Below are positions 12,704-28,569 of a stretch of 64,000 bases of DNA, piece by piece. The position numbers and the translations under genes were made by a program. The notes under the pieces were generated by a model that made no database searches, had not been told where the DNA came from, and was given only the letters and a program-made list of their open reading frames with translations. Source of the DNA: Caldinitratiruptor microaerophilus (lineage in GTDB: Bacteria; Bacillota; Sulfobacillia; Symbiobacteriales; ZC4RG38). Within the stretch, counting starts at the first letter, position 1. The number at the start of each line of letters is the position of its first letter. The stretch is taken from positions 806,001-870,000 of the forward strand of contig NZ_AP025628.1 of NCBI RefSeq assembly GCF_025999835.1, written 5' to 3'.

Positions 12704-13765
12704 GTGAAGGCCCTGCTCCTGAGCGGTGGGACCGGGAGCCGGCTCCGTCCCCTCACCTACACCTGCCCCAAGCAGCTGATCCCGGTTGCCAACAAGCCGG
12801 TGCTGTACCGCGCGCTCGAAGCCATCGGCGCGGGCGGCATCGCCGACGTGGCGGTCGTGGTGGGTGAGGCCGCGCCGGCCGTCATGGCTTCGGTGGGGGA
12901 TGGCTCGCGGTGGGGGCTCCGTGTGACGTACCTGCGGCAGGACGCGCCGAGGGGCCTGGCCCACGCGGTGGCGATCGCGGAAGAGTTCCTGGCTGCCGAC
13001 CCCTTCGTTCTCTTCCTGGGCGACACCTTGCTGAAAGACGGTATCGGGGCTGCCGTCACGCGCTTCCAGGCGACCCGTCCGGACGCGCTCGTCGTGGTTG
13101 GACGGGCCGAGGACCCCGGCCGGTTCGGGGTCGTTGAGGTGAAGGGCGGTCGCGTGCACCGTCTGGAAGAGAAGCCCAGAACTCCCCGGAGCGATCTGGT
13201 GCTCGTGGGGGTGTACGTGTTCGGCCCCCGGGTCTTCGATGCCGTCCGGGCGATCCGGCCGTCCGCGCGCGGGGAACTGGAGATCACCGACGCGATCCAG
13301 CAGATGGCGGACTGGGGATGCACCGTGGACGCCCACCAGGTCGCGGGCTGGTGGAAGGACATCGGGACCCCCGAAGACTTGCTCGATGCGAACCGCCTCC
13401 TCCTCGAAGACGTCGAGACGGAACTGCGGGGGCTGGCGGAGGAATCATGGATCGCCGGGCCCGTGCGCCTGGGGGCCGGGACGGTCGTGCGGCGGAGCAC
13501 CGTCCGGGGACCCGCCGTCATCGGGGAGGGCTGCCACATCGAGGACGCACACGTCGGGCCGTTCACGTCGGTCGGGGACCGCTGCACGCTACGCCGGGTG
13601 CAGATCGAGAACAGCATCGTCCTGGAAGGATGCGTTCTCGATCGCGTCGCGTTCCCCGTCGTGTCGAGTGTACTCGGGCGGGAAACCGTCATCGGGTGCG
13701 GAGGGACACCCTCACGGGGCCTCGGGCTGGTGGTCGGTGACCGAAGCCGGATCTGCCCCGTTTGA
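12704..13765 (+). CDS. glucose-1-phosphate thymidylyltransferase, long form
   Basis: This is a 353-residue nucleotidylyltransferase that would make a dNDP-hexose from hexose-1-phosphate. LLSGGTGSRLRPLT (residues 5-18) is the nucleotide-binding loop and CPKQLIPVANKP (20-31) the substrate loop; FLGDT is the metal-binding Asp motif. The C-terminal third is a left-handed beta-helix of hexapeptide-like repeats, typical of the long RmlA form found in secondary pathways. GTG 12704 lies 7 bp after GGGGGGA; the frame from 12608 adds an unlikely leader. It opens the glycosylation locus and may supply an activated sugar to the transferases downstream. Confidence 0.88.
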   Translation: MKALLLSGGTGSRLRPLTYTCPKQLIPVANKPVLYRALEAIGAGGIADVAVVVGEAAPAVMASVGDGSRWGLRVTYLRQDAPRGLAHAVAIAEEFLAADPFVLFLGDTLLKDGIGAAVTRFQATRPDALVVVGRAEDPGRFGVVEVKGGRVHRLEEKPRTPRSDLVLVGVYVFGPRVFDAVRAIRPSARGELEITDAIQQMADWGCTVDAHQVAGWWKDIGTPEDLLDANRLLLEDVETELRGLAEESWIAGPVRLGAGTVVRRSTVRGPAVIGEGCHIEDAHVGPFTSVGDRCTLRRVQIENSIVLEGCVLDRVAFPVVSSVLGRETVIGCGGTPSRGLGLVVGDRSRICPV

Positions 13766-13827
13766 GCCGTCGCGCACCGTCAGCGGCGGCAGGCGGGGAC
13801 CTGCGGCCGCCAGGACCGGAGGCGGCT

Positions 13828-14673
13828 TCACTCGAGCGTGTTGATGCGGATCTCCAGCGTGGTGGGGTGTCCCGCCACGGCGGACCGGTACCCGACGCGG
13901 GCGAACGCCGCGAAACGATACGGTACCAGTGCGACGAGCTGGTCGGGCGCGACGACCGTCTCGGCGCCGTCGACCAGGAAGTGAGAGCCGTCCGGGCCGA
14001 GTTCGAGCCGTACGACCGCGGCGAACCCGCCGGTGTTGTTCACCCACACCGTGTAGGTCGTGAACTCGCCCACGGCGCGGACCTGGCTGCCGGCAAAGGT
14101 GTCCCCCGTGGCGACCGTCTCGACTCCGGGGGGTGGGGGAGGCAGGACCTCGAACACGACGGTGAAGCGCGGAGCGAGGGAAGGGGTGGGGGTGAACCGG
14201 CTGACGAACCTCGCCACGTTGTCGGTGGTTTCGTTGCCGGACCGGATCATCACCCCGAAGTTCGGAAGCAGGCCTGATTGCCAGGCCGCCACGAGTCCGG
14301 TGACGTCCCAGGATTTGAACAGGCCCGCCTCGGAACCGAACGACAACGTGGCCACCGGCACCGGGTCGAAGCCCGGCTGCGAGCTCCACGCGGTTCCGAC
14401 CTCCGTCCACGGCGAGGTGAGCCGGTAGGCGGCGTATGGCGTCGGTGGCGCCGGTTGTTCACTGCTCGTCAGGAACAGGTCCAGGGTGGCGCTCAGCACG
14501 GTGGCGCCTGCGGGGATCGCCGCGGAAGGGAAAGGAGCCCGGACGAGGCTCCGGAACACCGCGCCGCCCAGGAAGCCGGCGAGAAGGGTGGGCGTGGACG
14601 GAAAGCTCCGGCTCGGTTGCGAGCTGTCCACGTAGGTGGTCTGCGTCGCAGGGATTACTGCCGTCCCTGGCAT
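13828..14673 (-). CDS. DNRLRE-like protein with C-terminal DUF6385-type domain
   Basis: This is a 281-residue protein. Residues 1-170 resemble the DNRLRE/carbohydrate-binding-type beta-sandwich (LDLFLTSSE, YRLTSPWTEVGTAWSSQP, SWDVTGLVAAWQSG). After a proline linker, residues 185-281 match the C-terminal domain of the repeat protein at 17195-17947 (VRLELGPDG... VALVPYRFAAFARVGY against VRLQLSADS... FFVPYKFVKYAKIQY). There is no signal peptide, as for many spore-surface proteins made in the mother cell. It lies 34 bp downstream of the methyltransferase on the same strand. A structural or glycosylated surface protein is inferred. Confidence 0.65.
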   Translation of the reverse strand: MPGTAVIPATQTTYVDSSQPSRSFPSTPTLLAGFLGGAVFRSLVRAPFPSAAIPAGATVLSATLDLFLTSSEQPAPPTPYAAYRLTSPWTEVGTAWSSQPGFDPVPVATLSFGSEAGLFKSWDVTGLVAAWQSGLLPNFGVMIRSGNETTDNVARFVSRFTPTPSLAPRFTVVFEVLPPPPPGVETVATGDTFAGSQVRAVGEFTTYTVWVNNTGGFAAVVRLELGPDGSHFLVDGAETVVAPDQLVALVPYRFAAFARVGYRSAVAGHPTTLEIRINTLE

Positions 14674-14707
14674 CCTGAACCCCCTGAGGTCGCCCTTCCC
14701 TGGCGGG

Positions 14708-15709
14708 TCAGGCGGGCTTGCGGATGGCGCGGAACACGTACTGCACCACGATGGCCTCGGTGGCGTAGGTGGGGGAGACCATGCCGAGGGGTGCGAGGGC
14801 CTCGCAGAAGCGTTCGACCAGCGACGTGAGGTCCGGCGTCGTGTTCGCCGCGAGCTGGACGATCATCAGGCCCGCCGACTCGAACATCGAGACGATCTCG
14901 CTCAGCGTGAAGAAGCGGAGATGGGTGCGATCCAGGATGCCCGCCGGCTGATAGGGCCACGCGCCGCCCAGGAGCGCCGCCACGACGCTGAAGTGGTTCA
15001 CGTTGGGGATCGAGGCCACCACCGAGCCATCCGCCGACAGGTAGCGAAGGTGGCGCTTCAGGACCTCCCAGGGGTCCCGCAGGTGCTCCAGCACGTCGCC
15101 GTAGACGATGCAGTCGAAGTAGCCGGCGGGGAAGGGGAGGTCCAGCTTCTCCGCGTCCCCCACGAAGACCTGGTCCAGACGGGCGCGGGCCCGCTCGGCG
15201 ACTTCTGGAACCACCTCGATACCGATCACCTCCGTGCTACCCCTCGCCTTCAGTGCGGCCCCGAGCCGGCCGGCCGCGCACCCCACGTCGAGGACCCGCC
15301 GGACGCCTGCCGGGATGAGGGACAAGAGGGTGCCGTGCACGTGTTCGTAGTAGTCCTCCGGTTTGCCGGCCACCGAGGCCCCGACCGCCCCGGCGTCGAT
15401 GCGGGCGATCAGGTCACGGGCCCGCTCGACCACGTCCTCTGCTTCGCCGTCCGAAGGCCAGTGCGCCACGGGCACGCCCGCCCGGGCCAGCGCGCGCTGG
15501 GTCGCAGGTGGCAGGTCCGCCCCTTCCAGGACCACCACGAGGTTGACCTCCCCCACCAGCGCCTCCTCGATCACCGCCGCCGGATCCCGCCTGGCCGTGT
15601 ACAGGCCGGTGGCGGAGTGGCCGAGGACGGAGAGCGCCCACGCCAACTGGGCGACGCGGTTGGCGTCGGCTGCCTCCGTACCGGGGGCCACGAGGAGTAC
15701 CTTCACCAC
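14708..15709 (-). CDS. class I SAM-dependent methyltransferase with N-terminal extension
   Basis: This is a 333-residue protein. Residues 1-110 form an unrecognised alpha/beta region (KVLLVAPGTEAADANR). Residues 125-300 are a Methyltransf_11/23-like domain with the SAM loop VLDVGCAAGRLG, the acidic strand-2 end VIGIEVV, and FDCIVYGDVLEHLRDP. The DRTHLRFFTLSEI segment is typical of methyltransferases in glycan clusters. It is divergent from the glycosyltransferase-methyltransferase fusion and upstream of the DNRLRE protein gene. It probably methylates a glycan or a glycosylated surface protein. The GTG at 15709 follows GGGAGGGAAGG. Confidence 0.85.
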   Translation of the reverse strand: MVKVLLVAPGTEAADANRVAQLAWALSVLGHSATGLYTARRDPAAVIEEALVGEVNLVVVLEGADLPPATQRALARAGVPVAHWPSDGEAEDVVERARDLIARIDAGAVGASVAGKPEDYYEHVHGTLLSLIPAGVRRVLDVGCAAGRLGAALKARGSTEVIGIEVVPEVAERARARLDQVFVGDAEKLDLPFPAGYFDCIVYGDVLEHLRDPWEVLKRHLRYLSADGSVVASIPNVNHFSVVAALLGGAWPYQPAGILDRTHLRFFTLSEIVSMFESAGLMIVQLAANTTPDLTSLVERFCEALAPLGMVSPTYATEAIVVQYVFRAIRKPA

Positions 15710-15765
15710 CCTTCCCTCCCGTCCGAAAGGCGCGTATGCATGGAGGTGCGAAAGGGGGCTACAGC

Positions 15766-17139
15766 GTGCGGATCAGCATCGTGATCCCGACCTGGAACCA
15801 GTGGGCGGTCACCGAGCGGTGCCTGCAGGCCCTCGCGCGCCATACCCCCCAACCGCACGAGGTGATCGTGGTCGACAACGGTTCCACCGATGGCACCCCT
15901 CAGATGCTGCGCAGTCGCTTCCCGGCGGTGCGGCTGGTGCAGAACCCCGTGAACGTCGGGTTTCCGAGGGCGGCCAATCAGGGGCTGCGGGCGGCCAGCG
16001 GGGACCTTCTGGTCCTCCTCAACAACGATACGGTGGTGACGCCCCGCTGGCTCACCTGCCTCATCCGGTGCCTGGAGGAGGCTCCACAGGCGGGTCTCGT
16101 CGGGCCGGTGAGCAACGCCGTCTCGGGTGTGCAGCAGGTGAGCGTCGCGTACGCCTCGCTGGCGGACATGGAGGCCTTCGCCACGCGCTTCAACGGTCCG
16201 GATCCCTCCCGCTGGCGCCAGACCGTCCGCCTGGCAGGCTTCTGCCTGCTGCTGAGCCGGCGCCTGTACGGGTCGGTCGGACCTCTGGACGAAGCCTTCG
16301 GGCTGGGGAACTACGAGGACGACGACTACTGCCTGCGCGCCATCGCGGCGGGCTACCGTGTCTGGGTCGCCGGGGACGTGTTCGTGCACCACGACGGCAG
16401 CGCGTCCTTCCGCCTGGACGGAGACCGGTACCGGCGGCTCCTGGCCCGGAACCGGGCGCTGTTCCTGCGAAAGCATGGACTCCGCCGCTACCGGTGGAAC
16501 CCAGACCCTCACCTGGCCGCCTGGTTGCCGGGTTCGCCCCGGCGCGTCGTGGACGTGGGGTGCGGCCTGGGTGCCACCGGCCTCGAGCTCATGCGCCGTG
16601 GTGTCGCGGAGGTCTGGGGCGTGACCTGGGATCCTGCCGAGGCGCGGATTGCGGGACGGCTCCTGCACCGCGTGGTCCTCGTCCCGGAGAGGACGGGCCT
16701 GCCCCCGGGAGAGATCGGCCCGTTCGCCGGCGCCGTGATCTCGGGCGGGCTGGACGAGTTCCCGGACCCCGTCGCCCTCCTGGCCCGGGTGCTCGACCTG
16801 CTCGAGCCCGGCGCTCCCCTGGTGGTGCAGGTTCTCAACGAGGGCCATTACTCGTCCCCCCGCTTCCGGTCATACCTGCCTGCGGGCCTGCCGGCTCCGG
16901 AGGAGGGCGTGGAGGGGGTGCCGGTGCGGCGCCTCCGGCTCGACGAGTTCCTGGGGACCCTGCTGCGGCTGGGGCTCGAAGGGATCGAAGTGGGAACCGT
17001 GCATGCCCCTCCGCCGGCAGCGGTCGAGCCGGCAGTCCGATCCGTCGCCGCTCAGGTCGCAGGGCCCGGCGAGCACCCCGAACAGGTGTATGCCGACCTG
17101 TGCACGTGGCGCTTCGTGGCGCGCGGGCGCAAGCCGTGA
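15766..17139 (+). CDS. GT2 glycosyltransferase fused to a methyltransferase domain
   Basis: This is a 457-residue two-domain enzyme. Residues 1-250 are a rhamnosyltransferase-like GT-A domain: SIVIPTWNQ, VIVVDNGSTDGTP (nucleotide-binding Asp), LLNNDT in place of DXD, and GNYEDDDYCLRAI as the catalytic-base region. Residues 260-455 are a Rossmann methyltransferase with VVDVGCGLGATGLEL as the SAM loop and a weaker remainder. GTG 15766 has AAAGGGGG 8 bp upstream; the ATG 15736 has none. A fusion of this kind suggests glycosyl transfer followed by methylation of the same glycan. The acceptor is unknown; the neighbouring repeat protein is a candidate. Confidence 0.85.
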   Translation: MRISIVIPTWNQWAVTERCLQALARHTPQPHEVIVVDNGSTDGTPQMLRSRFPAVRLVQNPVNVGFPRAANQGLRAASGDLLVLLNNDTVVTPRWLTCLIRCLEEAPQAGLVGPVSNAVSGVQQVSVAYASLADMEAFATRFNGPDPSRWRQTVRLAGFCLLLSRRLYGSVGPLDEAFGLGNYEDDDYCLRAIAAGYRVWVAGDVFVHHDGSASFRLDGDRYRRLLARNRALFLRKHGLRRYRWNPDPHLAAWLPGSPRRVVDVGCGLGATGLELMRRGVAEVWGVTWDPAEARIAGRLLHRVVLVPERTGLPPGEIGPFAGAVISGGLDEFPDPVALLARVLDLLEPGAPLVVQVLNEGHYSSPRFRSYLPAGLPAPEEGVEGVPVRRLRLDEFLGTLLRLGLEGIEVGTVHAPPPAAVEPAVRSVAAQVAGPGEHPEQVYADLCTWRFVARGRKP

Positions 17140-17169
17140 GCGAGATCTCTCGCCCGTATGTGGTCGCGG

Positions 17170-17194: not shown

Positions 17195-17947
17195 TCAGAC
17201 GTGGGCCTGCAGGAAGATGCTCAGGGACGTGGTGAGGGCGGCCGTCTGCGACGCGTACTGGATCTTCGCGTACTTGACGAACTTGTAGGGCACGAAGAAG
17301 AACTGCGTGGTCGGCGCCAGGGTGATGGTGCCGGTGGTGTCGGTGTCGAACAGCACGCTGTCCGCGCTGAGCTGCAGGCGGACCAGCGCGCTGTTCGACG
17401 TTCCGGCGTTCCTCGCCGCGAACGTCACGGTCGAGAACTCGAGGACGTCGACCACGACGGCGTCCTTGAAGGTCGTGTCGCCGGTGTCTGCCACGTTGGT
17501 CAGGGAGTCGGCCGTCCGCCGGTCCTCTAGCGTGACCGCGGCCAGTAGGCTGGCGGCCGTCGGGTTCGAGACCTGCACCTGGAGGCTGGCGGGGGTGGGG
17601 TTGGAGACCTGGGCCAGGAGGCTGGCCGGCGTGGGGTTGGAGACCTGGGCGAGGAGGCTGGCCGGCGTGGGGTTGGAGACCTGGGCGAGGAGACTGGCGG
17701 CGGTGGGGTTGGAGACCTGGGCGAGGAGGCTGGCGGCCGTGGGGTTGGAGACCTGGGCGAGGAGACTGGCGGCGGTGGGGTTGGAGACCTGGGCGAGGAG
17801 GCTGGCGGCCGTGGGGTTGGAGACCTGGGCGAGGAGGCTGGCGGGGGTGGGGTTGGAGACCTGGGCCAGGAGGCTGGCAGCCGTGGGGTTGGAGACCTGG
17901 GCCAGCAGCGCGGAGGCCTGGTCGTTGAACACCTTGAAGTTCGGCAT
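17195..17947 (-). CDS. 12-residue-repeat protein with DUF6385-type C-terminal domain
   Basis: This is a 250-residue protein. A 13-residue head (MPNFKVFNDQASA) leads into ten repeats of LLAQVSNPT[A/P]AS, then a spacer and a C-terminal domain of about 100 residues that matches the end of the 13828-14673 protein. The repeat has one Asn, one Thr and a Ser in every unit, a regular ladder well suited to O-glycosylation or to a beta-solenoid. There is no signal peptide or membrane segment. The ATG at 17947 follows GGAGGGGG. It is flanked by seven glycan-enzyme genes, so I infer it is an acceptor or scaffold for them, perhaps on the spore surface. The function is not demonstrated. Confidence 0.75.
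   Translation of the reverse strand: MPNFKVFNDQASALLAQVSNPTAASLLAQVSNPTPASLLAQVSNPTAASLLAQVSNPTAASLLAQVSNPTAASLLAQVSNPTAASLLAQVSNPTPASLLAQVSNPTPASLLAQVSNPTPASLQVQVSNPTAASLLAAVTLEDRRTADSLTNVADTGDTTFKDAVVVDVLEFSTVTFAARNAGTSNSALVRLQLSADSVLFDTDTTGTITLAPTTQFFFVPYKFVKYAKIQYASQTAALTTSLSIFLQAHV
17549..17908 (-). repeat. ten tandem 36-bp units (12-aa repeats)
   Basis: Ten contiguous in-frame 36-bp units encode LLAQVSNPT[A/P]AS. The units are nearly identical at DNA level, differing mainly in the Ala/Pro codon (GCC/GCG against CCC/CCG) and in one degenerate last unit (LQVQVSNPTAAS). Near identity indicates recent expansion or ongoing homogenisation, so copy number is likely to vary between strains. 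Confidence 0.97.
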
Positions 17948-17975
17948 GGGCGTTCCCCCTCCGGGATCTCGCCAC

Positions 17976-18094
17976 CAGGTTATGTTCGGTCGACCCGAGA
18001 TGACATAACAGCCGGCCCGGGCCATCCGCCCGGGTCGCTCTCGTGCTGGCCCCGGGGACTCCGGGCGCAATCCCTGCCGACTTGTCATAACCTT
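17976..18094. promoter_or_regulatory. divergent CATAACCT boxes (sigma-K -10-like)
   Basis: The 183-bp gap between the repeat-protein gene (-) and the first glycosyltransferase-TPR gene (+) has two CATAACCT boxes facing outward: 17976-17984 on the minus strand, 29 bp before the ATG, and 18086-18094 on the plus strand, 36 bp before the TTG start. Both fit CATAnnnT, close to the Bacillus sigma-K -10 (CATAnnnTA). Convincing -35 elements are not visible. Co-regulation of the two genes is inferred. Confidence 0.4.
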
Positions 18095-18130
18095 GGCATG
18101 GAGTTTCCGCCGCGCGGAGGTGATGATGCC

Positions 18131-20176
18131 TTGGCGGGTGCGCGCGCCCGGATCAGCCTCTGCGTGCTCGCCAGTGACGCCGCCGGGCTTTCCCGCTGCC
18201 TCCGCAGCGCGGCAGCGCTCGTCGACGAGGTCGTGGTACTGGCCGGGAACGGTTCCAGGGCGATCCGGCAACTTGTCGGCGCCTACGGGGGCCGGCTCGT
18301 GTCCGGCACCTGGGCGGACGACTTCTCGGCCGCACGGAACCGGTTGCTCGACCATGCGCACGGGGACTGGGTGCTCTTCCTGGACGACGACGAAGAGCTG
18401 CACGAGCCCGAACCGTCCACGCTGGCGGGCTTGCTCACGGAGACGGCCAGGGGGTACTACGTCCCTGTCCTGAGCCCCCTGGGTGATGGGGCCGAGGCAG
18501 AGCTCGAGCACCAGCTACGGCTTTTCCGGCGCAGTCCTGAGCACCGTTACGTGGGCATCTGCTGCGAGGAACTGACCGGGGACTGGTCGCCGGCCAGCCC
18601 GGGGGTGCACGTGGCGCCCCTGCTGGTCTGGCACCATGGTTACGTAGGAAACGGACTCGTCTCTCGCACCCGGCGGAAAGTGCAGTTGCTCGAGGCACAG
18701 GCGGGCCAGCCCGATGGCCACCGGAGCCTGTGCCTGGGACGTGAGTGGGCACGTCTGGGTCGGTACGCGGAGGCAGCCGGCCATCTCCGCCGTGCGGTCG
18801 AGTTGCTCGACGTACAGAGCCGGAACTGGGCACGGGCCTGCCGGGAACTCGCCTCGGCCCTCGTGGAGCAAGGGCTCTACGACGAGGCGCTCGCGCTGCT
18901 GGAACGGGGGGTGGAGAGGCACCCGCTGGCCAGCGACCTCTGGTTCCTGCTCGGGAGTGCGGCCGCGCGGCTGGGACGCCACAACCTGGCGATGGCCGCG
19001 TTCGGCCGTTGCCTCCAGCTGGGACAGGGCAGCTGGTTCTACGACCCCTCCCCGGGAGTCGGCGACTACAAGGCGGCGCACGCGCTCGGGCTGGTCCACG
19101 AGTGCCTGGGGCAGACCGATCGGAGCCTGGACCTCTACCGGACGGCCATGAGAGCGGGCTCTGGTTTCACCGAGCCCCTCTACCGCATAGCGACGATCCT
19201 GGGGACCGATCCGCGGAGAAACGCCCTGGCTCCAGCCCTCCTGCGCACCCTGGGAAAGACGTGGCGGACCGCTACGTCCGAGGACCTGCGTCTCGTGGCG
19301 GACGTGCTCGGCACGCAGGGTCGCTGGCGCGAGGCGGTCGAGTGCCTGGAGCGGTCCCTGGCGGCGATCACCGGGGCCGAAGGGGCGCTATTGCGGGGCA
19401 TCTGCCTCGCCATGCTCGGCCGCGTGGACGAGGCAACCGCGGCCCTGACCCAGGTTCCGCCCGGCTCGCCCCTCCGGGGCAAAGCGCTGCTCCGCCTCCT
19501 CGCCTTGGACTGGATCCGTGGCGACTGGGCGCGGGCCGAAGCGACCCGCCGGGAGCTGGGCGAGGCGGGGGTCACGGAGCCGGTCCAGAAGGCGGCGGAG
19601 CTGGCCCACCGGCTGCTGGAACGCGGTGCGGTGTGGGGTACCCTGGGGATCGATCCGGATGCGTCCGCGGCGATGGGCAACGCACTCCTTCTCTGGATCG
19701 AGGTCCTGCTGGCGGCAGGTCGGGTGTCGGAGGCAGAACGCCTCGGGGCGCTGATCGGCGCCCTGGCCTGGCCCCCGGGTCCTGCCAGGCTGGCCGTGGT
19801 CGCGGCCCGCTGGGGCCACCCGGAAGTCGTGCGCCCCTTCGAGCAGCGTCTGCGCGCCGCTGCCGTCCCGGAGGCGGCCGAGGCCTGCCTGGCGCTTGCT
19901 CGCGCCCACCGGCGGTCCGGGCGGCGAGGGGCGGCAGCCTGGTATCTCGCCAGCATCCGCGGGGGCTCGCCGCTCGTCGCGCCGTATGTCGAACTTGCGA
20001 ATCTGCTCCGGACGGCGGCGCGGGCGGTCGCCCGCGCGCGCTCGGCCGGGTCCTGCGCCACGGCGGCCGCCGTCCGGAGGGGTTCCCGCCGCGCTCCGAG
20101 ACAGCCGGCCGGACACGGGGGTGAGGAGCATGGCCGGAAGCCGGCCCGAGATCAGCCTCTGCATGATCGTCCGTGA
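18131..20176 (+). CDS. divergent GT2-TPR glycosyltransferase paralogue 1
   Basis: This is a 681-residue protein. The N-terminal 200 residues match the GT2 domain of the four following genes (SLCVLASD, FSAARNRLLDHA, VLFLDDDEELH, LRLFRRSPEHRYVG). The rest is rich in TPR-like helix pairs. The strand that ends in VVVDTGS in its paralogues reads VVVLAGNGS here, so the nucleotide-binding Asp is missing, although the DXD-like DDD (85-87) is kept. It may be inactive, regulatory or altered in donor choice. TTG 18131 is chosen because GGAGGTGA lies 7 bp upstream; the ATG 18098 frame has no ribosome-binding site. Its last 47 bp overlap the next gene. Confidence 0.8.
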   Translation: MAGARARISLCVLASDAAGLSRCLRSAAALVDEVVVLAGNGSRAIRQLVGAYGGRLVSGTWADDFSAARNRLLDHAHGDWVLFLDDDEELHEPEPSTLAGLLTETARGYYVPVLSPLGDGAEAELEHQLRLFRRSPEHRYVGICCEELTGDWSPASPGVHVAPLLVWHHGYVGNGLVSRTRRKVQLLEAQAGQPDGHRSLCLGREWARLGRYAEAAGHLRRAVELLDVQSRNWARACRELASALVEQGLYDEALALLERGVERHPLASDLWFLLGSAAARLGRHNLAMAAFGRCLQLGQGSWFYDPSPGVGDYKAAHALGLVHECLGQTDRSLDLYRTAMRAGSGFTEPLYRIATILGTDPRRNALAPALLRTLGKTWRTATSEDLRLVADVLGTQGRWREAVECLERSLAAITGAEGALLRGICLAMLGRVDEATAALTQVPPGSPLRGKALLRLLALDWIRGDWARAEATRRELGEAGVTEPVQKAAELAHRLLERGAVWGTLGIDPDASAAMGNALLLWIEVLLAAGRVSEAERLGALIGALAWPPGPARLAVVAARWGHPEVVRPFEQRLRAAAVPEAAEACLALARAHRRSGRRGAAAWYLASIRGGSPLVAPYVELANLLRTAARAVARARSAGSCATAAAVRRGSRRAPRQPAGHGGEEHGRKPARDQPLHDRP

Positions 20177-21770
20177 CGAGGCCGAATGCCTGCCGCGCTG
20201 CCTGGAGAGCGTTCAGGGCGTGGCGGACGAGATCGTCGTGGTAGATACCGGGTCGGTCGATGACACGGTCGAGATCGCTCGCCGGAGCGGCGCCCGGGTG
20301 GAGCACTTCCCGTGGAACGGTGACTTCGCTTCTGCTCGGAACCGGAGCCTCGACCTGGCCACCGGCGAGTGGATCCTCGTCCTGGACGCGGACGAAGAGC
20401 TGCACCCCGACGACCGCCACGGCATCCGATCCCTTGTGCGCCAGACCGGTGCCGAGGGGTTTCTCGTCCGCATCGTCAACCGGCTCGACAGCGCGGTTCC
20501 GTGGGCGGAGGAAACGAGCGTCAACGTCCGCCTGTTCCGTAACCGCCCCGAGTACCGGTTCACGGGCATCCTGCACGAGCAGATCGCAGAGAACATCGTG
20601 CGGGCGCGCCCGGGTGCCCGGCTCGAGCCCTGCGCCCTGCGGATCCTGCACTACGGGTACCAGCAGGAGGTGGTGGCCCGCAAGGAGAAGCGCCTGCGCA
20701 ACCTCGCCCTGGCGAGGGAGGCAGTGACCCGGGCGCCGGAGGACGCCTTCCTCCGCTTCAACCTCGGCGTCGAGTACCTGCGGCTGGAACGGTACGAAGA
20801 CGCCCTGGCCGAACTGGAGGCGGCCTGGCGGCTACACGCCCGGGGAGCCCTGTGGGCTTCCAAGCTCGTCAAGAGCCTCCTCGTGTGCCTGCTGCGGCTC
20901 GGCAGGCACCAGGACGTCCTGGCGCGGGCGGAGGCGAGCCAGGCCGAGTTCCCGGACTTCACCGACCTCGTCTTCCTGCGCGGGGTAGCCCTCTTCGAGC
21001 TGAAGCGTCACGCCGAGGCGGTCGGCGTGTTCCACCAGTGCCTGGCCATGGGTCCGGCCCCGTGTCCGCCGTATTCGGGGGTGGAGCCCGCACTGGGCGG
21101 GTGCAAGACGCACCTCGCGCTGGGGATGGTGTACGAGGCCATGGGGCGGCTCCCCGACGCGGTCCGGCACTACCACCAGGCGGCGGTGCTCGGGGGTGGA
21201 TGGCACGAGCCGCTCGGGCGGCTCGCCGCGCTTCTCATCCCCCGCGAGGACCTGGCGGCGGTCCGCGGATACCTGGAGCCGTTCTTCGATCTCGGGCAGC
21301 CCTCCCAGCGGGTGGCGCTGGCGAACCTCTTCTTCACCCATGGCCGTTACGACGTGGCGTTGCAGTACCTGGGGCCGCCCGACCCGGAAGACGGCGGTGC
21401 CGGCGGAGCCGCCGCCCTTCTCCGGGGCCGCTGCCTGGCGAAGGTGGGGCAGTACGAGGAAGCGCTGGCCGCGTTCCGGTCCGTTCCCCCCGAGAGCCCC
21501 TTGCACCGTGAAGCCCTCGTCCACACGGCATTCTGCTGCTGGTGCCTGGACCGGCCACGGGCCGCCCGGGCCGCCGTCCGAAAGCTCGGCGGGCGGGACG
21601 AGGACTACCTGGCGGTCGCCCGGCTGTTCTACTCCGAGGCGGAGGAAATCCTGTCGGAGGGCCTGCGGCGGTTCCCCGAGTCGACGCTCCTGCAAGAGAC
21701 CCTCGTGGCGCTGCGCGAGGAGATCGCCGACCTGGAGCGTCCGGCGCGACCGGCGTCCGGGGACGATTGA
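20130..21770 (+). CDS. GT2-TPR glycosyltransferase paralogue 2
   Basis: This is a 546-residue protein. Residues 7-200 form a GT-A domain with ISLCMIVRDEAECLPRCL, VVVDTGSVDDT (nucleotide binding), FASARNRSLDLATGEW and LDADEEL with the DXD motif at 86-88. ILHEQI and the HYGY motif follow before a long TPR array, where FNLGVEYLRLERYEDALAEL is a clear unit. This architecture resembles SunS-like and other peptide or protein glycosyltransferases, in which TPRs may grip the acceptor polypeptide. ATG 20130 sits after GGGGGTGAGGAG inside the end of paralogue 1. All catalytic motifs are intact. Confidence 0.88.
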   Translation: MAGSRPEISLCMIVRDEAECLPRCLESVQGVADEIVVVDTGSVDDTVEIARRSGARVEHFPWNGDFASARNRSLDLATGEWILVLDADEELHPDDRHGIRSLVRQTGAEGFLVRIVNRLDSAVPWAEETSVNVRLFRNRPEYRFTGILHEQIAENIVRARPGARLEPCALRILHYGYQQEVVARKEKRLRNLALAREAVTRAPEDAFLRFNLGVEYLRLERYEDALAELEAAWRLHARGALWASKLVKSLLVCLLRLGRHQDVLARAEASQAEFPDFTDLVFLRGVALFELKRHAEAVGVFHQCLAMGPAPCPPYSGVEPALGGCKTHLALGMVYEAMGRLPDAVRHYHQAAVLGGGWHEPLGRLAALLIPREDLAAVRGYLEPFFDLGQPSQRVALANLFFTHGRYDVALQYLGPPDPEDGGAGGAAALLRGRCLAKVGQYEEALAAFRSVPPESPLHREALVHTAFCCWCLDRPRAARAAVRKLGGRDEDYLAVARLFYSEAEEILSEGLRRFPESTLLQETLVALREEIADLERPARPASGDD

Positions 21771-21771
21771 G

Positions 21772-23823
21772 ATGCCGCCGCGCGTGTCGCTCTGCATGAT
21801 CGTACGGGACGAGGCCGAGGCACTCGCCCGGTGCCTGCGGAGTGCCCAGGGCGCCTACGACGAACTGGTCGTCGTGGATACCGGGTCCGTCGACGACAGC
21901 CCCGCCGTCGCGCGCCGGTTCGGTGCCCGGGTGCTCCGCTTCCCCTGGTGCGATGACTTCGCCGCAGCGCGCAATCACGGCCTGGAGCGGGCCCGGGGTG
22001 ACTGGCTGCTGTGGCTGGACGCCGACGACGAGCTGCCGCCGGGAACGGCCGGCCGCCTGCGCGAGCTGGTCGCGGAGGGCGGCCCGGAGGGCTATTTCTT
22101 CCCGACCGTCAGCTTCCTGGGCGGCGGGCTCAGCGACCGTTCCGTCACGTGCCTTCACCTGCGCCTCTTCCGCAACCGGCCGCACCACCGGTTCCGCGGA
22201 GCCATCCACGAGCAGGTCACCTGCGATCCCGGGTCCTGCGCCGTCCGTCAGGACATCCGGGTCCTGCACCACGGTTACCGGCAGCACCCGGAGCGGCTGC
22301 GGGCGAAGGCGGAGCGCAACCGCCGGATCCTGCTCCAGCAGCTGCGCCGCTACCCGGGCAGCCCGTGGTACCTGTACCACCTCGGCACGGAATACCTGCG
22401 CCTCGGGCACCCGGATCGGGCCATCACCTGTTACCGGGAGGCCCGCAAGAGGGCCCTCCGGGAGGGTCTGGTCCTGCCCGAGCTGTGGAAGAAGCTCGCC
22501 GCCGTCCTGTCGGAGCACGGCGATCCGGGTGAGGCGGAGGAGATCGTCGCCGAAGGACTGGGCCTCTTTCCGGAGTACACGGACCTCGAGTTCGTCGCCG
22601 GAACCGTCGCCCACCGCCAGGGGCGCCTCGGCGACGCCCTCAGGCACTTCCGCCGGTGTCTGGCGATGGGCGACGCCCCGGTCACCTTTCCCAGGGAGGA
22701 CGGCCTGGGCGGGTGCCGTGCCCTCCATGCCGCCGGGCTGGTCCACTTCGACCTGGGGAACTACCCGGCGGCCTTCGAACTCGCCCTCGCCGCGCTGGCC
22801 CGTGGCCCCGCTGACACGGAGACCCTCGGTCTCGCCGTGGAGGCCCTCTCCAGCCATCTGGACGGGCGCGAGCTCGTACGGCGGCTGGAGACCCGCCTGG
22901 AGGTCACCCCGGAAGTGGCCTGGCTGCTGGTACAGCTCCTCGCGCGAGTGGGCGCGTACCGGGCGGCCCTCTACTTCCTCCCGCGCAGCACTCCGGCCGC
23001 GCCGGCCGCGGCCCGGGCCCTCCTCGCCGGAATCTGCCATCTGGGTGCGGGAGAGCCCTCGCGCAGCGAGACGTCCTTCCTGGAGGCCCGCGAGGCGGGC
23101 GCACCGGCGGAGGAGGTGAACCGCTACCTGGCCCTCGTGCACGGGTGCGCCGGCCGGCGGGACCCGGCTGGGTGGCAGGCACTGGCGCCCTCCCCTCAGG
23201 CGAGGCTGGAGCTCGCCGAGAAGCTGCTCGAACTTGGCCGTGCCCGCACCGGTCTCCGCATCTTGCGGGAGGTGGTGGCAGGGGGGGAGGTCAGCCTGCG
23301 TCTGGAGGCCGGGAAGGCGTGTCTCCGGCGCGGGCGGTACCGGGAAGCGTGCCGGCTCCTGCTCGGCGTTCCGTCACCACGGCCGGACGAGGTGCGCGTG
23401 GACCTCTCCCTGGCTGCCGCTGGGGCAGGCAGGGTCGCGTTCGCCCGACGCCTCCTCGCTGAGACGGATCCGCGCCGGTGCAGGTTCGAGACCGTCTGTG
23501 CCCTCGCCTGGTCGCTCCTGACGGCCGCCCGGGCAGTGCTGGGGGCGGCCCCCGCCACGGCCGCACGGTGTCGGGACAGGAAGGCGCGGCTCGACCGGCT
23601 TCCGATCTGGCGCTGGTCCGTCTTGCGGCCGGTCGGCGGGAAGCGGCCGTGGCGGGTGCGGAAGGGGAACCCGCGCCGGGGCCGGGGCGGGCGGCAGGGG
23701 GGTGCGGTGGATGACGGGCGCCTCGGAGACGGCCAGGCGGCCGCGGCTATCGCTTTGCATGATCGTCCGCGACGAGGAGGCAAATCTCCCAAGATGCTTG
23801 AAGAGCGTGGAAGGGGTGTATGA
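21772..23823 (+). CDS. GT2-TPR glycosyltransferase paralogue 3
   Basis: This 683-residue protein is the longest of the set. The GT2 domain has VSLCMIVRDEAEALARCL, VVVDTGSVDDS, FAAARNHGLERARGDW and the LDADDE DXD at 83-85, then GAIHEQV and HHGYRQ. TPR-like units follow (YHLGTEYLRLGHPDRAITCY; GLVHFDLGNYPAAFELAL). Compared with paralogues 2 and 4 it has about 150 more TPR residues and a basic, low-complexity tail. The ATG at 21772 starts 1 bp after the preceding stop. The last 113 bp overlap the next gene, so the tail is partly shaped by that gene's coding sequence. Confidence 0.88.
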   Translation: MPPRVSLCMIVRDEAEALARCLRSAQGAYDELVVVDTGSVDDSPAVARRFGARVLRFPWCDDFAAARNHGLERARGDWLLWLDADDELPPGTAGRLRELVAEGGPEGYFFPTVSFLGGGLSDRSVTCLHLRLFRNRPHHRFRGAIHEQVTCDPGSCAVRQDIRVLHHGYRQHPERLRAKAERNRRILLQQLRRYPGSPWYLYHLGTEYLRLGHPDRAITCYREARKRALREGLVLPELWKKLAAVLSEHGDPGEAEEIVAEGLGLFPEYTDLEFVAGTVAHRQGRLGDALRHFRRCLAMGDAPVTFPREDGLGGCRALHAAGLVHFDLGNYPAAFELALAALARGPADTETLGLAVEALSSHLDGRELVRRLETRLEVTPEVAWLLVQLLARVGAYRAALYFLPRSTPAAPAAARALLAGICHLGAGEPSRSETSFLEAREAGAPAEEVNRYLALVHGCAGRRDPAGWQALAPSPQARLELAEKLLELGRARTGLRILREVVAGGEVSLRLEAGKACLRRGRYREACRLLLGVPSPRPDEVRVDLSLAAAGAGRVAFARRLLAETDPRRCRFETVCALAWSLLTAARAVLGAAPATAARCRDRKARLDRLPIWRWSVLRPVGGKRPWRVRKGNPRRGRGGRQGGAVDDGRLGDGQAAAAIALHDRPRRGGKSPKMLEERGRGV

Positions 23824-25240
23824 CGACCTGGTGATCGTCGACACGGGCTCGCGGGACCGGACCGTGGAGGCCGCGCGGGCCTGCGGGGCCCGGGTGCTGT
23901 CCTTTCCGTGGCGGGACGACTTCAGCGCAGCGCGCAACCACGCCCTCGACCACGCGACCGGCGAGTGGGTTCTGTGGCTCGACGCCGACGACGAGGTCGT
24001 GCCGGAGGACCGCGGAAAGATCCGCCCCCTCCTGGCGGACCCGGCGTGCGCAGGGTACTTCTTCTACACGCTCAGCCTCGTTCATCCAGGGGTCCCCTCC
24101 GTTCACGTCCGGAACGTGCATCTGCGGCTGTTCCGGCGCACCGCGGAACACCGGTTCGTCGGAGCCATCCACGAGTACGTGACGACGGGGGCCGGGCGCT
24201 ACGGCACGGCCGGCGTCCGGATCCTCCATCACGGCTATCTTCCGGGTGAACTCGCCGCGAAGGACAAGACGGGCCGGAACCTCCGGATCCTCAGGCGTCT
24301 GGTCGAGGACGAGCCGGGGAACGCTCTCTGGCACTACTACCTGGGATGTGAACTGTGCCGCGCCGGGGACTGGACGGGTGCCGCGGCGAGCTTCGGGCGC
24401 GCCAGGGAAGTGCTGGGAGAGTCGGCCGGCTGGGCGCCGGACCTGTGGCGCCGGTCGGCGATCTGCCGAATGCACCTGGGCCAGCACCGCGAGGCACTGG
24501 CCGAGCTCCAGGAGGGCATCGCCCGCCACCCCGACTACACGGACCTGCACTTCCTCCTCGGGCTTCTGTGGCATCGCCTCGCGCGCTACGGAGACGCGCT
24601 GGCGGCCCTCCGCCGTGCCCTGGAGATGGGCGAGCCCCCTCCCTGGTACACGCACGACCACGGGACAGGCGGGTTCCGGGCGCTGACGGCACTCGCTCAG
24701 GTGCACTACGATCTGGGCAACTACCCCGAGGCGGCGCACGCCTGCCTCGAGGCGCTCCGGCGCCAGCCGGACTACCCGGGCCCCTTGCCCGTCCTGGTAG
24801 GCGCCCTGTGGGCCATGCACCCGCCCCGGAAGGCCAGTGCCCTGCTCGCTGCCTTCGTGAGAGATCTGCGACTGGCCCCCGCCCCGCGAGTCGCCCTCTG
24901 CACACGCGTGGCGGCCGCCCTCCACGAGGTGGGCGCGCATGCCGCCTGCCTGGAGTGGCTCGGTGCTCACCCGCGCCGGAGCCGACACGACGGTGCCGGC
25001 CCGCCGGAGGCCGTGGCTCTTCGGGCTCGCGCGCTGGCGGCACTGGGTCGCTCCCTCGTCCGGCCCCGCACACCGCCGCCGGCTCCCGGTCTGCCCGCGG
25101 CCCTGGTCCGCCGGGCCGGGCGCCTGCGCGCGGCAGCCCTGGCCGTCCTCGACCGGTCCGGATCTCCCGTCCTGCGGGCGCTCGCCCGGGCGGCCGGACG
25201 TAGGCGCCCTGGTCCCCTGCGGGTCTGGTCGGGAGGATGA
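23711..25240 (+). CDS. GT2-TPR glycosyltransferase paralogue 4
   Basis: This is a 509-residue protein with the same plan: LSLCMIVRDEEANLPRCL, VIVDTGSRDRT, FSAARNHALDHATGEW, LDADDEV (DXD 91-93), GAIHEYV, HHGY, then TPR-like repeats (YYLGCELCRAGDWTGAAASF) and an Arg/Ala/Pro-rich tail. ATG 23711 is preferred over GTG 23702 because the GGCAGGGGGG stretch ends about 10 bp before it. The ATGA overlap with the next gene shows tight coupling. Confidence 0.88.
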   Translation: MTGASETARRPRLSLCMIVRDEEANLPRCLKSVEGVYDDLVIVDTGSRDRTVEAARACGARVLSFPWRDDFSAARNHALDHATGEWVLWLDADDEVVPEDRGKIRPLLADPACAGYFFYTLSLVHPGVPSVHVRNVHLRLFRRTAEHRFVGAIHEYVTTGAGRYGTAGVRILHHGYLPGELAAKDKTGRNLRILRRLVEDEPGNALWHYYLGCELCRAGDWTGAAASFGRAREVLGESAGWAPDLWRRSAICRMHLGQHREALAELQEGIARHPDYTDLHFLLGLLWHRLARYGDALAALRRALEMGEPPPWYTHDHGTGGFRALTALAQVHYDLGNYPEAAHACLEALRRQPDYPGPLPVLVGALWAMHPPRKASALLAAFVRDLRLAPAPRVALCTRVAAALHEVGAHAACLEWLGAHPRRSRHDGAGPPEAVALRARALAALGRSLVRPRTPPPAPGLPAALVRRAGRLRAAALAVLDRSGSPVLRALARAAGRRRPGPLRVWSGG

Positions 25241-26628
25241 GCACCATGCGCCTGACCCTGTGCGTGATCGCGCGGGACGAGGAGGAGAACCTGCCGCGCT
25301 GCCTGGCGAGCGTCTCCGAGGTGGTGGACGAGATCGTGGTGGTGGACACCGGCTCCCGGGACCGCACCCGTGAGGTGGCGGAGGCGGCAGGCGCCCGGGT
25401 CGCCTTCTACCTGTGGGACGGCTCGTTCAGCGCCGCCCGCAACCTCGCCCTCGATCTGGCGACCGGTGACTGGGTCCTCATGCTCGACGCGGACGAGGAA
25501 CTGCACCCCGGCGACCGGGACTCGATCCGGCCCCTGCTGGCTGGCGAGGCCGAAGGGTACTTCTTCACCGTTCTCAGCTACCTCGGGCCGCGTCCGGGAG
25601 CCGACGTCCTCCGCGACGCCCGGCTGTGCCTGTTCCGGCGCCGACCGGGCTACCGTTACGAACGACGCCTCCACGAGGACATCGCCGGCAGCATCCTTTC
25701 CGCCCGGCCCGGCGCGGTTCTGGCTCACGCTGCAGTCCGTGTGCTGCACTACGGGTACCTGGACCCCTCCCTCGCCCGGCGGGCCAAGGCGGAGCGGAAC
25801 CGCGCGGTCCTGCTGGCAGCGCTGCGGGAGACGCCGGACGATCCCTTCCTCCTGTACAGCCTCGCCGCGGAAGCCATGGGCCAGGGCGAGGCGGCCATGG
25901 CGCTCGACCTGCTGCGCGAGGCAGGGCGCCGCGCGGACCGGGGTGCTCCCTGGTATCCGGACTGGGTGAAGAAGACGGCCGTGTGCCTCATCGAGCTGGG
26001 GCGGCTCGACGAGGCCAGGGAGGTGCTGAATCACGGGGTGGAGGCGTTCCGCGACTTCACGGACCTGCGGTTCCTCCTGGGCGTCCTCCACGTGCGAAGG
26101 GGGGACACCGGTGAGGCGGAGGCTTGCTTCGAGGAGTGCCTCCGCCTTGGCGAAGCACCGGTGGGCTACGCCTCGTGGGAGGGGGTGGGTACGTTCCGAG
26201 CTTGGGCTGCCCTCGGGAGCCTGGCGGAATCGAGGAACGACTACCAGGCGGCCGTCCGTTGCTACGCCGCCGCGCTGAGTCAACGCCACGACTTCGGCCC
26301 GGCCCTGGGGAGACTCTGCCGGATCCTCGCCCGGGTGGCACCACGTCAGGCAACGGCGTGGATCGCCCGCTACTTCGACCTGTCGCACGAGGCGACGGCC
26401 ATCACGTTGGCCCGCGTCCTCGAAGCCGCCGGCGCCCCGGGGCTCGCGGGTCGGGTCCTGCGGGTGGCCCTGAACGTCACCGGCCGGGCGGGGACGCCGG
26501 CGCTCGCCGCCGGGTTCGCCGCACTGCGGCGCCGCCAGGCCGCGGCTTGGCTCGGTGGCCCGGTTCCGGGACGGCCGCCTCACACGGACCCGCCCTCCGT
26601 GCCCCGACGGGCCAGCGGCGTTCCGTGA
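25237..26628 (+). CDS. GT2-TPR glycosyltransferase paralogue 5
   Basis: This is a 463-residue protein: LTLCVIARDEEENLPRCL, VVVDTGSRDRT, FSAARNLALDLATGDW, LDADEEL (DXD 84-86), then RLHEDIAG and HYGYLDPS, and a shorter TPR region (FLLYSLAAEAMGQGEAAMAL). All GT2 motifs are intact. It starts at ATG 25237 overlapping the previous TGA and ends the five-gene array. Its 3' end overlaps the convergent 26580-27221 gene by 49 bp. Five related enzymes in a row suggest stepwise building of one glycan or modification of several related acceptors. Confidence 0.88.
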   Translation: MSTMRLTLCVIARDEEENLPRCLASVSEVVDEIVVVDTGSRDRTREVAEAAGARVAFYLWDGSFSAARNLALDLATGDWVLMLDADEELHPGDRDSIRPLLAGEAEGYFFTVLSYLGPRPGADVLRDARLCLFRRRPGYRYERRLHEDIAGSILSARPGAVLAHAAVRVLHYGYLDPSLARRAKAERNRAVLLAALRETPDDPFLLYSLAAEAMGQGEAAMALDLLREAGRRADRGAPWYPDWVKKTAVCLIELGRLDEAREVLNHGVEAFRDFTDLRFLLGVLHVRRGDTGEAEACFEECLRLGEAPVGYASWEGVGTFRAWAALGSLAESRNDYQAAVRCYAAALSQRHDFGPALGRLCRILARVAPRQATAWIARYFDLSHEATAITLARVLEAAGAPGLAGRVLRVALNVTGRAGTPALAAGFAALRRRQAAAWLGGPVPGRPPHTDPPSVPRRASGVP

Positions 26629-27221
26629 CGGGAGGCCCCTCCGACCGGGTAGTACCGGCCCGGCCGGTCCGCCGTGGCCCTGTAAGATCGCACGGGACGG
26701 CCCCGCGATGCCGTGTCCCCGGGGTCTCCCCACTGTACCGTCAGCGTTGCTGGTGGCGGGCTGCCGCCCGGGACCGGGCCGGTCTCGCCGCCTGCGACCG
26801 GCAGCGGCACGGCAGCGACCCGCGATGGCGGCCCGTCCGGGGCGGCCCCGGGGGGATCGCCGGCGGTGGTCAGTTCCACGACAAGGGGAAGTGCGGCCAC
26901 CAGTCCGACGCCCGGCGCCGGCTCGACGTGTACGGGACCGGCCTCGACGGTCCGGGCGACCACGCCGGCCCCGGGACCTGCGGGCAGCGGCAGGACACAG
27001 CGGAAGGGGGCCGAGTAGCGGACAACCCGCTCGCCGGCCGGGTCGCGGAACACCAAGAGGAGGCCCAGCGTTCCCTCTGCGGTCGCCTGCCGGTCGCGGG
27101 CACAGGGAGACAGGCGCAGATGTGTACCGTCGCGGTCCCAGCGTATGTCCGCCAGATTCTCGCCGGGTTGTCCGAACCCGTCTGTTCGGATCACGACCTC
27201 TACCCGCCCGCGGCACTTCAT
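26580..27221 (-). CDS. unrecognised protein, possible SPOCS/DUF3794-like domain
   Basis: This is a 213-residue protein with no firm family match. Residues 30-120 show a beta-rich pattern (GTLGLLLVFRDPAGERVVRYSA, PFRCVLPLP, LPLVVELTT) that resembles the SPOCS/DUF3794 fold of spore coat and SipL-type proteins; this is an eye-based impression. The Gly/Pro/Arg-rich tail overlaps the end of the last glycosyltransferase gene. The ATG at 27221 follows a strong AGGAGGTGA, so the gene is likely to be real. A CATAGGGT box lies 25-34 bp upstream. A spore-coat or exosporium role is inferred from these features only. Confidence 0.55.
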   Translation of the reverse strand: MKCRGRVEVVIRTDGFGQPGENLADIRWDRDGTHLRLSPCARDRQATAEGTLGLLLVFRDPAGERVVRYSAPFRCVLPLPAGPGAGVVARTVEAGPVHVEPAPGVGLVAALPLVVELTTAGDPPGAAPDGPPSRVAAVPLPVAGGETGPVPGGSPPPATLTVQWGDPGDTASRGRPVRSYRATADRPGRYYPVGGASRHGTPLARRGTEGGSV

Positions 27222-27245
27222 ACCCGCTCACCTCCTGTCGCGATC

Positions 27246-27255: not shown

Positions 27256-27304
27256 CCGGCCCCCGGCAGCGCCTCTTCCGCCGCCGGGGGTTCCCGGGGG
27301 CCGC

Positions 27305-27340
27305 GGTGAAGGCCACCGGGCAGTACCGGTGGCCTTCACC
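27305..27340 (-). terminator. perfect 15-bp hairpin after the Cys-rich gene
   Basis: GGTGAAGGCCACCGG (27305-27319) and its exact complement (27326-27340) flank a 6-base loop, 20 bp beyond the stop of the 27361-27948 gene. There is no T-run, so it is either a factor-assisted terminator or an mRNA 3'-end stabiliser, which is common in GC-rich genomes. Confidence 0.6.
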
Positions 27341-27360
27341 ACGGGGATGCTGGACAGGGA

Positions 27361-27948
27361 TCAGGAGCCGGTGAACGGCGTGGTGACCCGGTCGGCCACG
27401 CTGGACGGCGCCAGAACCACCTTCACCGCTCGGTCCTGGCAGATGGACACGTCGAACGCGCCGACGTCGAGGGTGGCCTGCACGGCGGTGCCCCCGCCGA
27501 TGATGGTGGCCCCGCTGACCGTGGCGCTCGGCGGCGGGCTGGAGAGCGCGCAGTCCGTGCCGGAACCCAGGTTGTCGGTGAAGTCGGTGTCGACCTGGCA
27601 GGTGATGAAGTTGCCGTTCGATAGCTGCAGGAAGAACGCCGACCGGATGGTGAGCGTGAACTGGCCGTTGAAGCACGTCGAGCTGAGCGGGAAGGCGGTG
27701 GAGAAGAGCACGGCGACGATGGTGGTTCCGGGCGGCAGCGTGGGGCTGCAGGTGATGGTGGTGGGGGGCGGATCGTAGCTGCAGCGGCGCCGGATCTTGG
27801 TCCGGCAGAGCTGGACGATGTCCAGCGTGCCCGGGGTGAGGACGCCGGTCTCGGTGGTGTCCACGCAGACCGTCGGGGTGATCGGTGGGTCGGCGTCACT
27901 ATGGAAGATCTGGATCTCGCCACCCGCGAGCGGCGGAACGGCACTCAT
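27361..27948 (-). CDS. Cys-rich, beta-rich protein, unrecognised
   Basis: This is a 195-residue protein of unknown family. It has about eight scattered Cys, many Thr/Ser/Val, and short alternating stretches (TIVAVLFSTAFPL, GQFTLTIRSAFFLQLSNG, QATLDVGAFDVSICQD) that suggest a beta-sandwich cross-linked by disulphides. There is no signal peptide or hydrophobic anchor. Cys-rich beta-sandwiches without export signals are usual for spore coat, exosporium or appendage subunits, and the neighbours support this, but it is inference. ATG 27948 follows AAAGGAG by 7 bp. A CATAAGTAT sequence upstream resembles but does not fit CATAnnnTA. Confidence 0.6.
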   Translation of the reverse strand: MSAVPPLAGGEIQIFHSDADPPITPTVCVDTTETGVLTPGTLDIVQLCRTKIRRRCSYDPPPTTITCSPTLPPGTTIVAVLFSTAFPLSSTCFNGQFTLTIRSAFFLQLSNGNFITCQVDTDFTDNLGSGTDCALSSPPPSATVSGATIIGGGTAVQATLDVGAFDVSICQDRAVKVVLAPSSVADRVTTPFTGS

Positions 27949-28044
27949 CCAACCACTCCTTTCGGAAGTCCCGTCTCATACTTATGTAGAGCGCTCCACA
28001 CCCGTTCCTTCGCAGGCTGGGGCCGCGCAGCGAGGCAGAGGAGA

Positions 28045-28068
28045 CGGCCCGGCACCTTGGCCGGGCCG
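28045..28068 (-). terminator. hairpin 3 bp after the 28072-28569 gene
   Basis: CGGCCCGG (28045-28052) pairs with CCGGGCCG (28061-28068) around an 8-base loop. It directly follows the stop codon of the minus-strand gene and precedes the Cys-rich gene. No T-run follows. Confidence 0.5.
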
Positions 28069-28071
28069 CAT

Positions 28072-28569
28072 TCACCACGTGATCGAGATGTGGACCGGAC
28101 GGCGCAGCCTGCACCGCCAGGGCAGGACGTGGAGTGTGCCGGTGACCAAACACGGGTCCGCTGGGTCGACCGTGGTGCCCTCGAGCTGAACGGCGGGAGT
28201 GTCGGCGTCGACCCCGTCCGCCGGGCCGAGGTGTGCCCTCAGGACGACGTCTTGTGCCAGCATCGCCGGGCGATCCGACGTCTCGAAGGCCAGAAGGACC
28301 TTCACCGTCAGCTCGAGGCAGCCCGAATCGGGAATCCACCGCATCGGGCGGAGGGGGGTCGCCTCCGCGTGGAGGATGCGGAGGACGGGGCGGTCGTGCC
28401 GGTACGTCATGGCGAACTGTTGGGAGCGGAAGGCTTCGTGGAACTCGAGCCACAGGTTGGCCGTGATGCGGGGCGACGGCGGCCCGCCGGGTGATTCGCC
28501 GGGAAACGGGCTCGCGGCGGGCGCGAAGGGCGACTCGGCGCCCCCGGCCTGATGAATCTCGATACGCAT
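28072..28569 (-). CDS. unrecognised protein of the spore-surface-like locus
   Basis: This is a 165-residue protein from ATG 28569, which has GAGGAG 7 bp upstream. A longer frame from GTG 28764, also preceded by GAGGAG, adds 65 residues rich in Arg/Pro that look non-native. The body is beta-rich (NLWLEFHEAF, LELTVKVLLAFET, DVVLRAHLGPADG, TGTLHVLP) with two Cys and ends in HISITW. It has no signal peptide and no recognised family. It is grouped with the two following minus-strand genes by orientation and style; a surface or coat role is only an inference. Confidence 0.55.
   Translation of the reverse strand: MRIEIHQAGGAESPFAPAASPFPGESPGGPPSPRITANLWLEFHEAFRSQQFAMTYRHDRPVLRILHAEATPLRPMRWIPDSGCLELTVKVLLAFETSDRPAMLAQDVVLRAHLGPADGVDADTPAVQLEGTTVDPADPCLVTGTLHVLPWRCRLRRPVHISITW

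Follow-up and report, generated by a model that had tools for sequence, protein, structure and literature searches.

A locus of TPR-bearing glycosyltransferases and DUF6385 repeat proteins that probably makes and O-glycosylates a spore-surface fibre protein

What is the function of five tandem glycosyltransferase (GT) genes that adjoin a gene for a highly repetitive protein? The question is raised by a 64-kb stretch of DNA, the window (positions 806001-870000 of the complete, 3.60 Mb, 70% GC genome of a SpoIVA-bearing member of the Bacillota), in which the core elements lie between 12704 and 26628 (Table 1). An earlier note, made from the sequence, had proposed a system that glycosylates a repeat protein, probably on the spore surface. 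The enzymes listed there were all recovered in profile searches: each of the five consecutive GT2-TPR genes matched Pfam GT2 and TPR models, and the GT2-methyltransferase fusion, the second methyltransferase, and the nucleotidylyltransferase (a long-type RmlA) were present as described. These five genes are the only strong matches to the GT2-TPR profile in the whole genome. The description of genes that overlap or abut throughout holds for the GT array (junctions, in order: 47 bp overlap, 1 bp apart, 113 bp overlap, and 4 bp overlap) but not for the flanking genes, which are convergent or divergent. Searches of the 64-kb window for tRNA and Rfam RNA genes gave no matches.

Table 1. Features of the locus, in window coordinates.
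Feature	Position	Strand	Evidence
Long-type glucose-1-phosphate thymidylyltransferase (RmlA-like)	12704..13765	+	NCBIfam rmlA_long TIGR01208 403 bits, cut-off 320; PF00483
DNRLRE/CBM96 + DUF6385 protein	13828..14673	-	NF033679 94.5 bits; DUF6385 8.3e-21; CBM96 7.8e-12
SAM methyltransferase (C-terminal domain)	14708..15706	-	PF13489 6.5e-21
GT2-methyltransferase fusion	15736..17139	+	PF00535 3.3e-27, PF13489 3.6e-8
Repeat protein with C-terminal DUF6385	17195..17947	-	TRF array 17540-17902; DUF6385 9.5e-17
Divergent intergenic region, 150 bp, repeat gene / GT array	17948..18097	.	CATAAC/GTTATG motifs in sequence
GT2-TPR 1, divergent	18098..20176	+	Pfam GT2 + TPR; alignment
GT2-TPR 2	20130..21770	+	PF00535 5.2e-22 + TPR; GmaR 3.4e-31, SunS 1.8e-21
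GT2-TPR 3	21772..23823	+	PF00535 1.4e-23 + TPR
GT2-TPR 4	23711..25240	+	PF00535 5.7e-22 + TPR
GT2-TPR 5	25237..26628	+	PF00535 5.1e-19 + TPR
Orphan protein, 195 aa, 8 Cys	27361..27948	-	no recognisable family
Orphan 165-aa protein	28072..28569	-	no recognisable family

The C-terminal domain shared by two proteins of the locus, which had been noticed earlier, is DUF6385 (8e-21 and 1e-16); the genome contains no further copy. Tandem repeats had been ascribed to more than one protein; they were found in one, whose gene contains a 36-nt unit repeated 10.1 times (TRF score 565). Its product has the layout MPNFKVFNDQAS-(ALLAQVSNPTxAS)n-DUF6385, with an MPNFKVF N-terminus and ten 12-aa repeats, and contains no Cys. 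Matches of the repeats to MgtE_N and similar Pfam families were taken as repeat artefacts. The window repeats contain more Ser (15%) than Thr (8%). Across 40 DUF6385 proteins with an MPN-type start, Thr accounted for 17.4% of the residues preceding DUF6385, compared to 5.4% for the remaining ORFs of these loci. The repeat units of these 40 proteins are unrelated (for example, NGTITSVLGATITAGTL, ITSTGLAITAPANGLTVTAP, TKVATVGTLNKVTAVGTI, and ASLLAQVSNETA), and unit lengths of 12, 34, 40, and 49 aa occur; the class found in the window (xAASLL) was also seen in relatives L074, L091-L093, L095, and L096. We propose that the window repeat protein is the glycan acceptor/fibre subunit, and that the DNRLRE/CBM96 protein bearing the other DUF6385 copy is a probable spore-surface partner.

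Carriers of DUF6385 made up 56 of the 398 Bacillota genomes searched, commonly with two genes a few kb apart. When 40 DUF6385 neighbourhoods were assembled from carriers and same-class relatives, GT2-TPR genes were present in 31 (two or more in 29) and absent nearby in nine, which implies that in the latter cases glycosylation can be dispensed with or relies on genes at other sites. When 25 DUF6385 genomes were searched in full with the profile, 66 strong GT2-TPR matches (E<=1e-80) were obtained, 57 of which, in 23 genomes, lay no more than 15 kb from a DUF6385 gene. Co-occurrence of the array with the repeat protein in relatives had been named as a check in the note. Searches that started from the GTs were made in named genomes (Paenibacillus, Desulfosporosinus, Desulfotomaculum, Thalassobacillus, Anaerosolibacter, and others). 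Among the best 80 GT matches, DUF6385 was present in 15 of 19 loci with at least three GT2-TPR genes versus 5 of 61 loci with one or two; thus, multi-gene GT arrays belong with DUF6385. Simple ORF calling and GC content add noise to these linkage counts. Homologues of the GT2-methyltransferase fusion were found in L092, L093, L096, and L055. The idea that GT similarity tracks repeat type (L091, L092, and L074 have both) was set aside, because the two could not be separated from phylogeny.

Many of the inspected GT loci without DUF6385 adjoin genes for collagen-like spore-type proteins or flagellin/FliD. Given the linkage in both directions and these neighbours, the GT family repeatedly adjoins plausible polypeptide acceptors. 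One relative (L088:13764-15128, minus strand) encodes collagen GPP repeats joined to DUF6385 directly after a GT2-TPR array, a fusion that may link BclA-like and DUF6385 acceptors. GT2-TPR genes located among genes for collagen-like proteins, most of them starting with a MSQANIPNITPTI-like sequence (L141, L143, L146, L148, L149, and L163), suggest glycosylation of a collagen nap in Lysinibacillus, Paenibacillus, Anoxybacillus, and others. Close GT2-TPR relatives also occur in flagellar operons with flagellin, FliD, FliW, or CsrA (L105, L139, L154, L169, and L171), which suggests flagellin glycosylation in those cases. By extension, the window array could modify flagellin or a vegetative surface (S-layer) protein, its adjacency to DUF6385 being incidental; we regard this as very unlikely, since array-type GTs accompany DUF6385, not flagellin, and since DUF6385 genes are found in sporulators and have the promoters described below. 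Elsewhere (L100:3596-4642 and L118:8515-9676, the latter in Clostridium ljungdahlii), GT2-TPR genes have as neighbours a ~95-aa beta protein and a DNRLRE-like protein in which DUF6385 was not detected; these loci may be a divergent version of the system.

The distribution of DUF6385 is biased towards spore formers. SpoIVA was encoded by 47 of 47 near-complete DUF6385 genomes and by 260 of 309 others (P=6e-4), and, over all genomes, by 54 of 56 DUF6385 carriers (P=0.003), both P values being only indicative because the genomes are related and not independent. Regions up to 150 bp upstream of start codons were searched for the sigma-K pattern AC-N15-18-CATAnnnTA, a consensus of the form quoted in PMC5749712. 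Perfect matches were present upstream of 21 of 88 deduplicated DUF6385 genes, compared to 29 of 792 other ORFs, and ended at a median of 34 bp before the start codon. Two hundred dinucleotide shuffles gave a mean of 1.1 and a maximum of 4 matches versus the 21 observed, and permuted -10 patterns gave no more than 12 each versus 31 for the true sigma-K -10. No enrichment of the sigma-E -10 consensus upstream of DUF6385 genes was observed (2/97, compared to 6/792 for other ORFs). On both strands of the intergenic region between the window repeat gene and the GT array, CATAAC/GTTATG motifs are present that may mark a common promoter or operator; the sigma-K -10 there is only imperfect. The promoter statistics in relatives support the view that the DUF6385/GT locus would be expressed late, in the mother cell.

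PDB sequences nearest to the GT2-TPR family profile include GmaR (5e-70) and SunS (2e-39). GmaR of Listeria (PDB 22ao), a flagellin O-GlcNAc transferase, is the closest solved GT domain; it acts on flagellin, is also an anti-repressor, and has no DUF6385. SunS has the GT2 fold, is detectable by sequence, and likewise has a polypeptide acceptor, but forms an S-linkage to Cys of a bacteriocin. The earlier note had likened TPR-bearing GT2 enzymes to SunS and had allowed for S-glycosylation. A SunS-type or glycocin-like system, for which the place of SunS among the nearest solved enzymes would speak, appears extremely improbable to us: the scores against the SunS equivalog model (TIGR04195) were 80.8 and 62.7 bits, far below its cut-off of 350, the repeat protein offers no Cys, and neither a peptide precursor nor an exporter was found among the genes read. 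O-glycosylation of the kind carried out by SgtA seems to fit better. SgtA of Clostridioides difficile is a GT2 enzyme with TPRs whose gene adjoins bclA3, and it was shown to modify Thr residues in the repeat region of BclA3 with beta-O-GlcNAc (PMC7157674). The forward primer published for cloning of the SgtA gene reads MITISLCMI (PMC7157674), so that SgtA and the window GTs have a common N-terminal ISLCMI motif in addition to the GT2 domain and C-terminal TPRs. The two systems differ in that SgtA/BclA3 comprises one GT and a collagen acceptor, while the window combines five tandem GTs with DUF6385 repeats and has an accessory RmlA, methyltransferases, and a GT2-methyltransferase fusion. The statement in the note that no such complete locus was familiar is thus valid for the DUF6385 acceptor family, which was mentioned in no paper in a literature check of open-access papers, but overlooks the SgtA/BclA3 precedent (PMC7157674). 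Within the array, GT2-TPR 1 may be inactive or use a different donor, judging from an alignment in which its DTGS motif is replaced by LAGNGS and DAD by DDD.

The accessory genes bear on a further alternative, in which the locus makes a polysaccharide of the spore or cell surface (crust/exopolysaccharide), free or lipid-linked, that the DUF6385/DNRLRE proteins merely bind. RmlA, methyltransferases, and a GT2-methyltransferase fusion are typical of such loci, and CBM96 is classified among the carbohydrate-binding modules. We nevertheless consider this unlikely. The genes read include no phosphoglycosyltransferase for initiation, no flippase, and no polymerase; the TPR-GT2 architecture and the nearest solved enzymes are polypeptide-modifying; and the GTs are linked to Thr-rich repeat proteins. 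The RmlA-like protein would rather serve sugar-nucleotide supply for protein glycosylation, and the separate methyltransferase is a probable sugar O-methylase. Three RmlB genes above the curated cut-off are present in the genome, outside the locus.

It is therefore our preferred reading, and one that we consider likely, that the locus is a late-sporulation, mother-cell (sigma-K type) unit that makes and O-glycosylates a Thr/Ser-rich spore-surface fibre protein, as a variant of the SgtA/BclA3 kind. The GT array adjoins the DUF6385 repeat gene, this linkage is kept in relatives, and promoters and distribution suggest a location on the spore. The protein glycosylation proposed earlier for a spore repeat protein thus receives strong support (linkage, sporulation bias, sigma-K promoters in relatives, and Thr-rich repeats), with the exception of its S-linked variant. 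Several observations given above speak against the reading: the imperfect sigma-K match in the promoter region of the window, the nine DUF6385 neighbourhoods without GT2-TPR genes, the excess of Ser over Thr in the window repeats, and the loss of DTGS from GT2-TPR 1. The sequence of events might be as follows. After sigma-K type expression late in the mother cell, cytoplasmic GT2-TPR enzymes would hold the repeat polypeptide in the TPR superhelix and add sugars to repeat Thr/Ser, initiation and elongation of the glycan being divided among the paralogues. RmlA would provide a dTDP-sugar, and the GT2-methyltransferase fusion and the methyltransferase would extend or cap the glycan. The glycosylated protein would finally be deposited on the spore as a structural subunit of the spore coat or of the outer surface, with an MPNxKVF start, a Thr/Ser-rich beta-strand stalk, and a head resembling those of endospore appendages (ENA). 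Attachment to the spore coat may be reflected in a relative (L055:4562-5308, minus strand) whose DUF6385 is fused to a SipL/SPOCS match that is weak and narrowly misses the cut-off (3e-4).

The nature of the head was studied by structure prediction. AlphaFold2 modelled DUF6385 alone with a mean pLDDT of 96 (76-sequence alignment); for the repeat protein, the pLDDT over DUF6385 was ~95, and the repeats were predicted, at low confidence, to form one strand per unit. A Foldseek search of the DUF6385 model against 350,542 PDB chains returned Ena2A and Ena1B as the top matches (E 7-8e-6); Ena3A and Ena1C were among the first eleven (7e-6 to 2e-4 for the four ENA proteins). DUF6385 is thus predicted to be a jelly-roll whose nearest PDB folds are Bacillus ENA subunits, a relation that is new here. 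The TM-scores were only 0.53-0.62 for ENA subunits and 0.67 for PirA and XepA, and so indicate jelly-roll likeness and are no proof of homology. Comparison of the repeat/DUF6385 profile with sequences of solved structures revealed no convincing similarity, so that the likeness to ENA is one of fold. The long repeat stalk distinguishes the DUF6385 protein from ENA subunits of similar predicted fold, and S-ENA/L-ENA proteins (PF13157) form disulphides through an N-terminal Cys connector, while the repeat protein is Cys-free. Glycosylated BclA proteins of the exosporium, with a repeat stalk and a C-terminal jelly-roll-like head, have a layout comparable to that predicted here, but their G-X-X collagen repeats are not matched by the 12-aa window unit, the GPP-DUF6385 fusion of L088 being closer in this respect.

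The MPNxKVF start conserved in DUF6385 repeat proteins recalls the M-P hook of F-ENA (PMC11952670). Clostridial F-ENA-4 has extra densities on Ser/Thr, read by the authors as probable O-glycans (PMC11952670). The F-ENA family DUF4183 was found in none of 25 DUF6385 genomes, that of the window included, and the S-ENA family PF13157 in one of 25; in the window genome, Enas (PF13157) gave no match at E<=0.001, and Pfam assigned DUF6385 instead. With this fold likeness, hook, and near-absence of ENA/F-ENA, a new endospore appendage class is possible. Such an appendage, a tentative suggestion that we consider rather doubtful, would consist of an MPNxKVF hook, a neck of Thr-rich beta repeats that varies greatly in length, and a jelly-roll head similar to that of ENA, and would polymerise on the spore, with the GT2-TPR array of each lineage co-evolving with the repeat to produce a dedicated O-glycan coat. 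If this were true, the DUF6385 appendage would replace ENA/F-ENA in spore formers that lack them.

The preferred reading, glycosylation of a spore-surface repeat protein, assigns a probable role to an unnamed domain found in about one in seven of the sampled Bacillota species (56/398) and to its GT arrays, and predicts that a glycoprotein of the spore surface is widespread beyond the Bacillus and C. difficile models. The pairing of array and repeat recurs in many distantly related spore formers, and so points to a widespread, unstudied sugar-coated spore surface. Differing repeats with matching GT arrays also constitute a natural series for studying protein substrate choice by TPR-bearing glycosyltransferases.

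The distal part of the region appears to lie outside this unit. The Cys-rich orphan, counted as a member of the locus in the note, had no homologue in 60 related genomes and matches no recognisable family, which places it beyond the conserved core. The 165-aa orphan, with only marginal matches in relatives, is likewise outside the conserved unit. An ORF at 26580-27221 (minus strand) is of doubtful coding status; its likeness to SPOCS, perceived by eye, received no profile support. A gene for a DNA N6/N4 methyltransferase (PF01555, 4.5e-19) adjoins the locus at 28798-29790.
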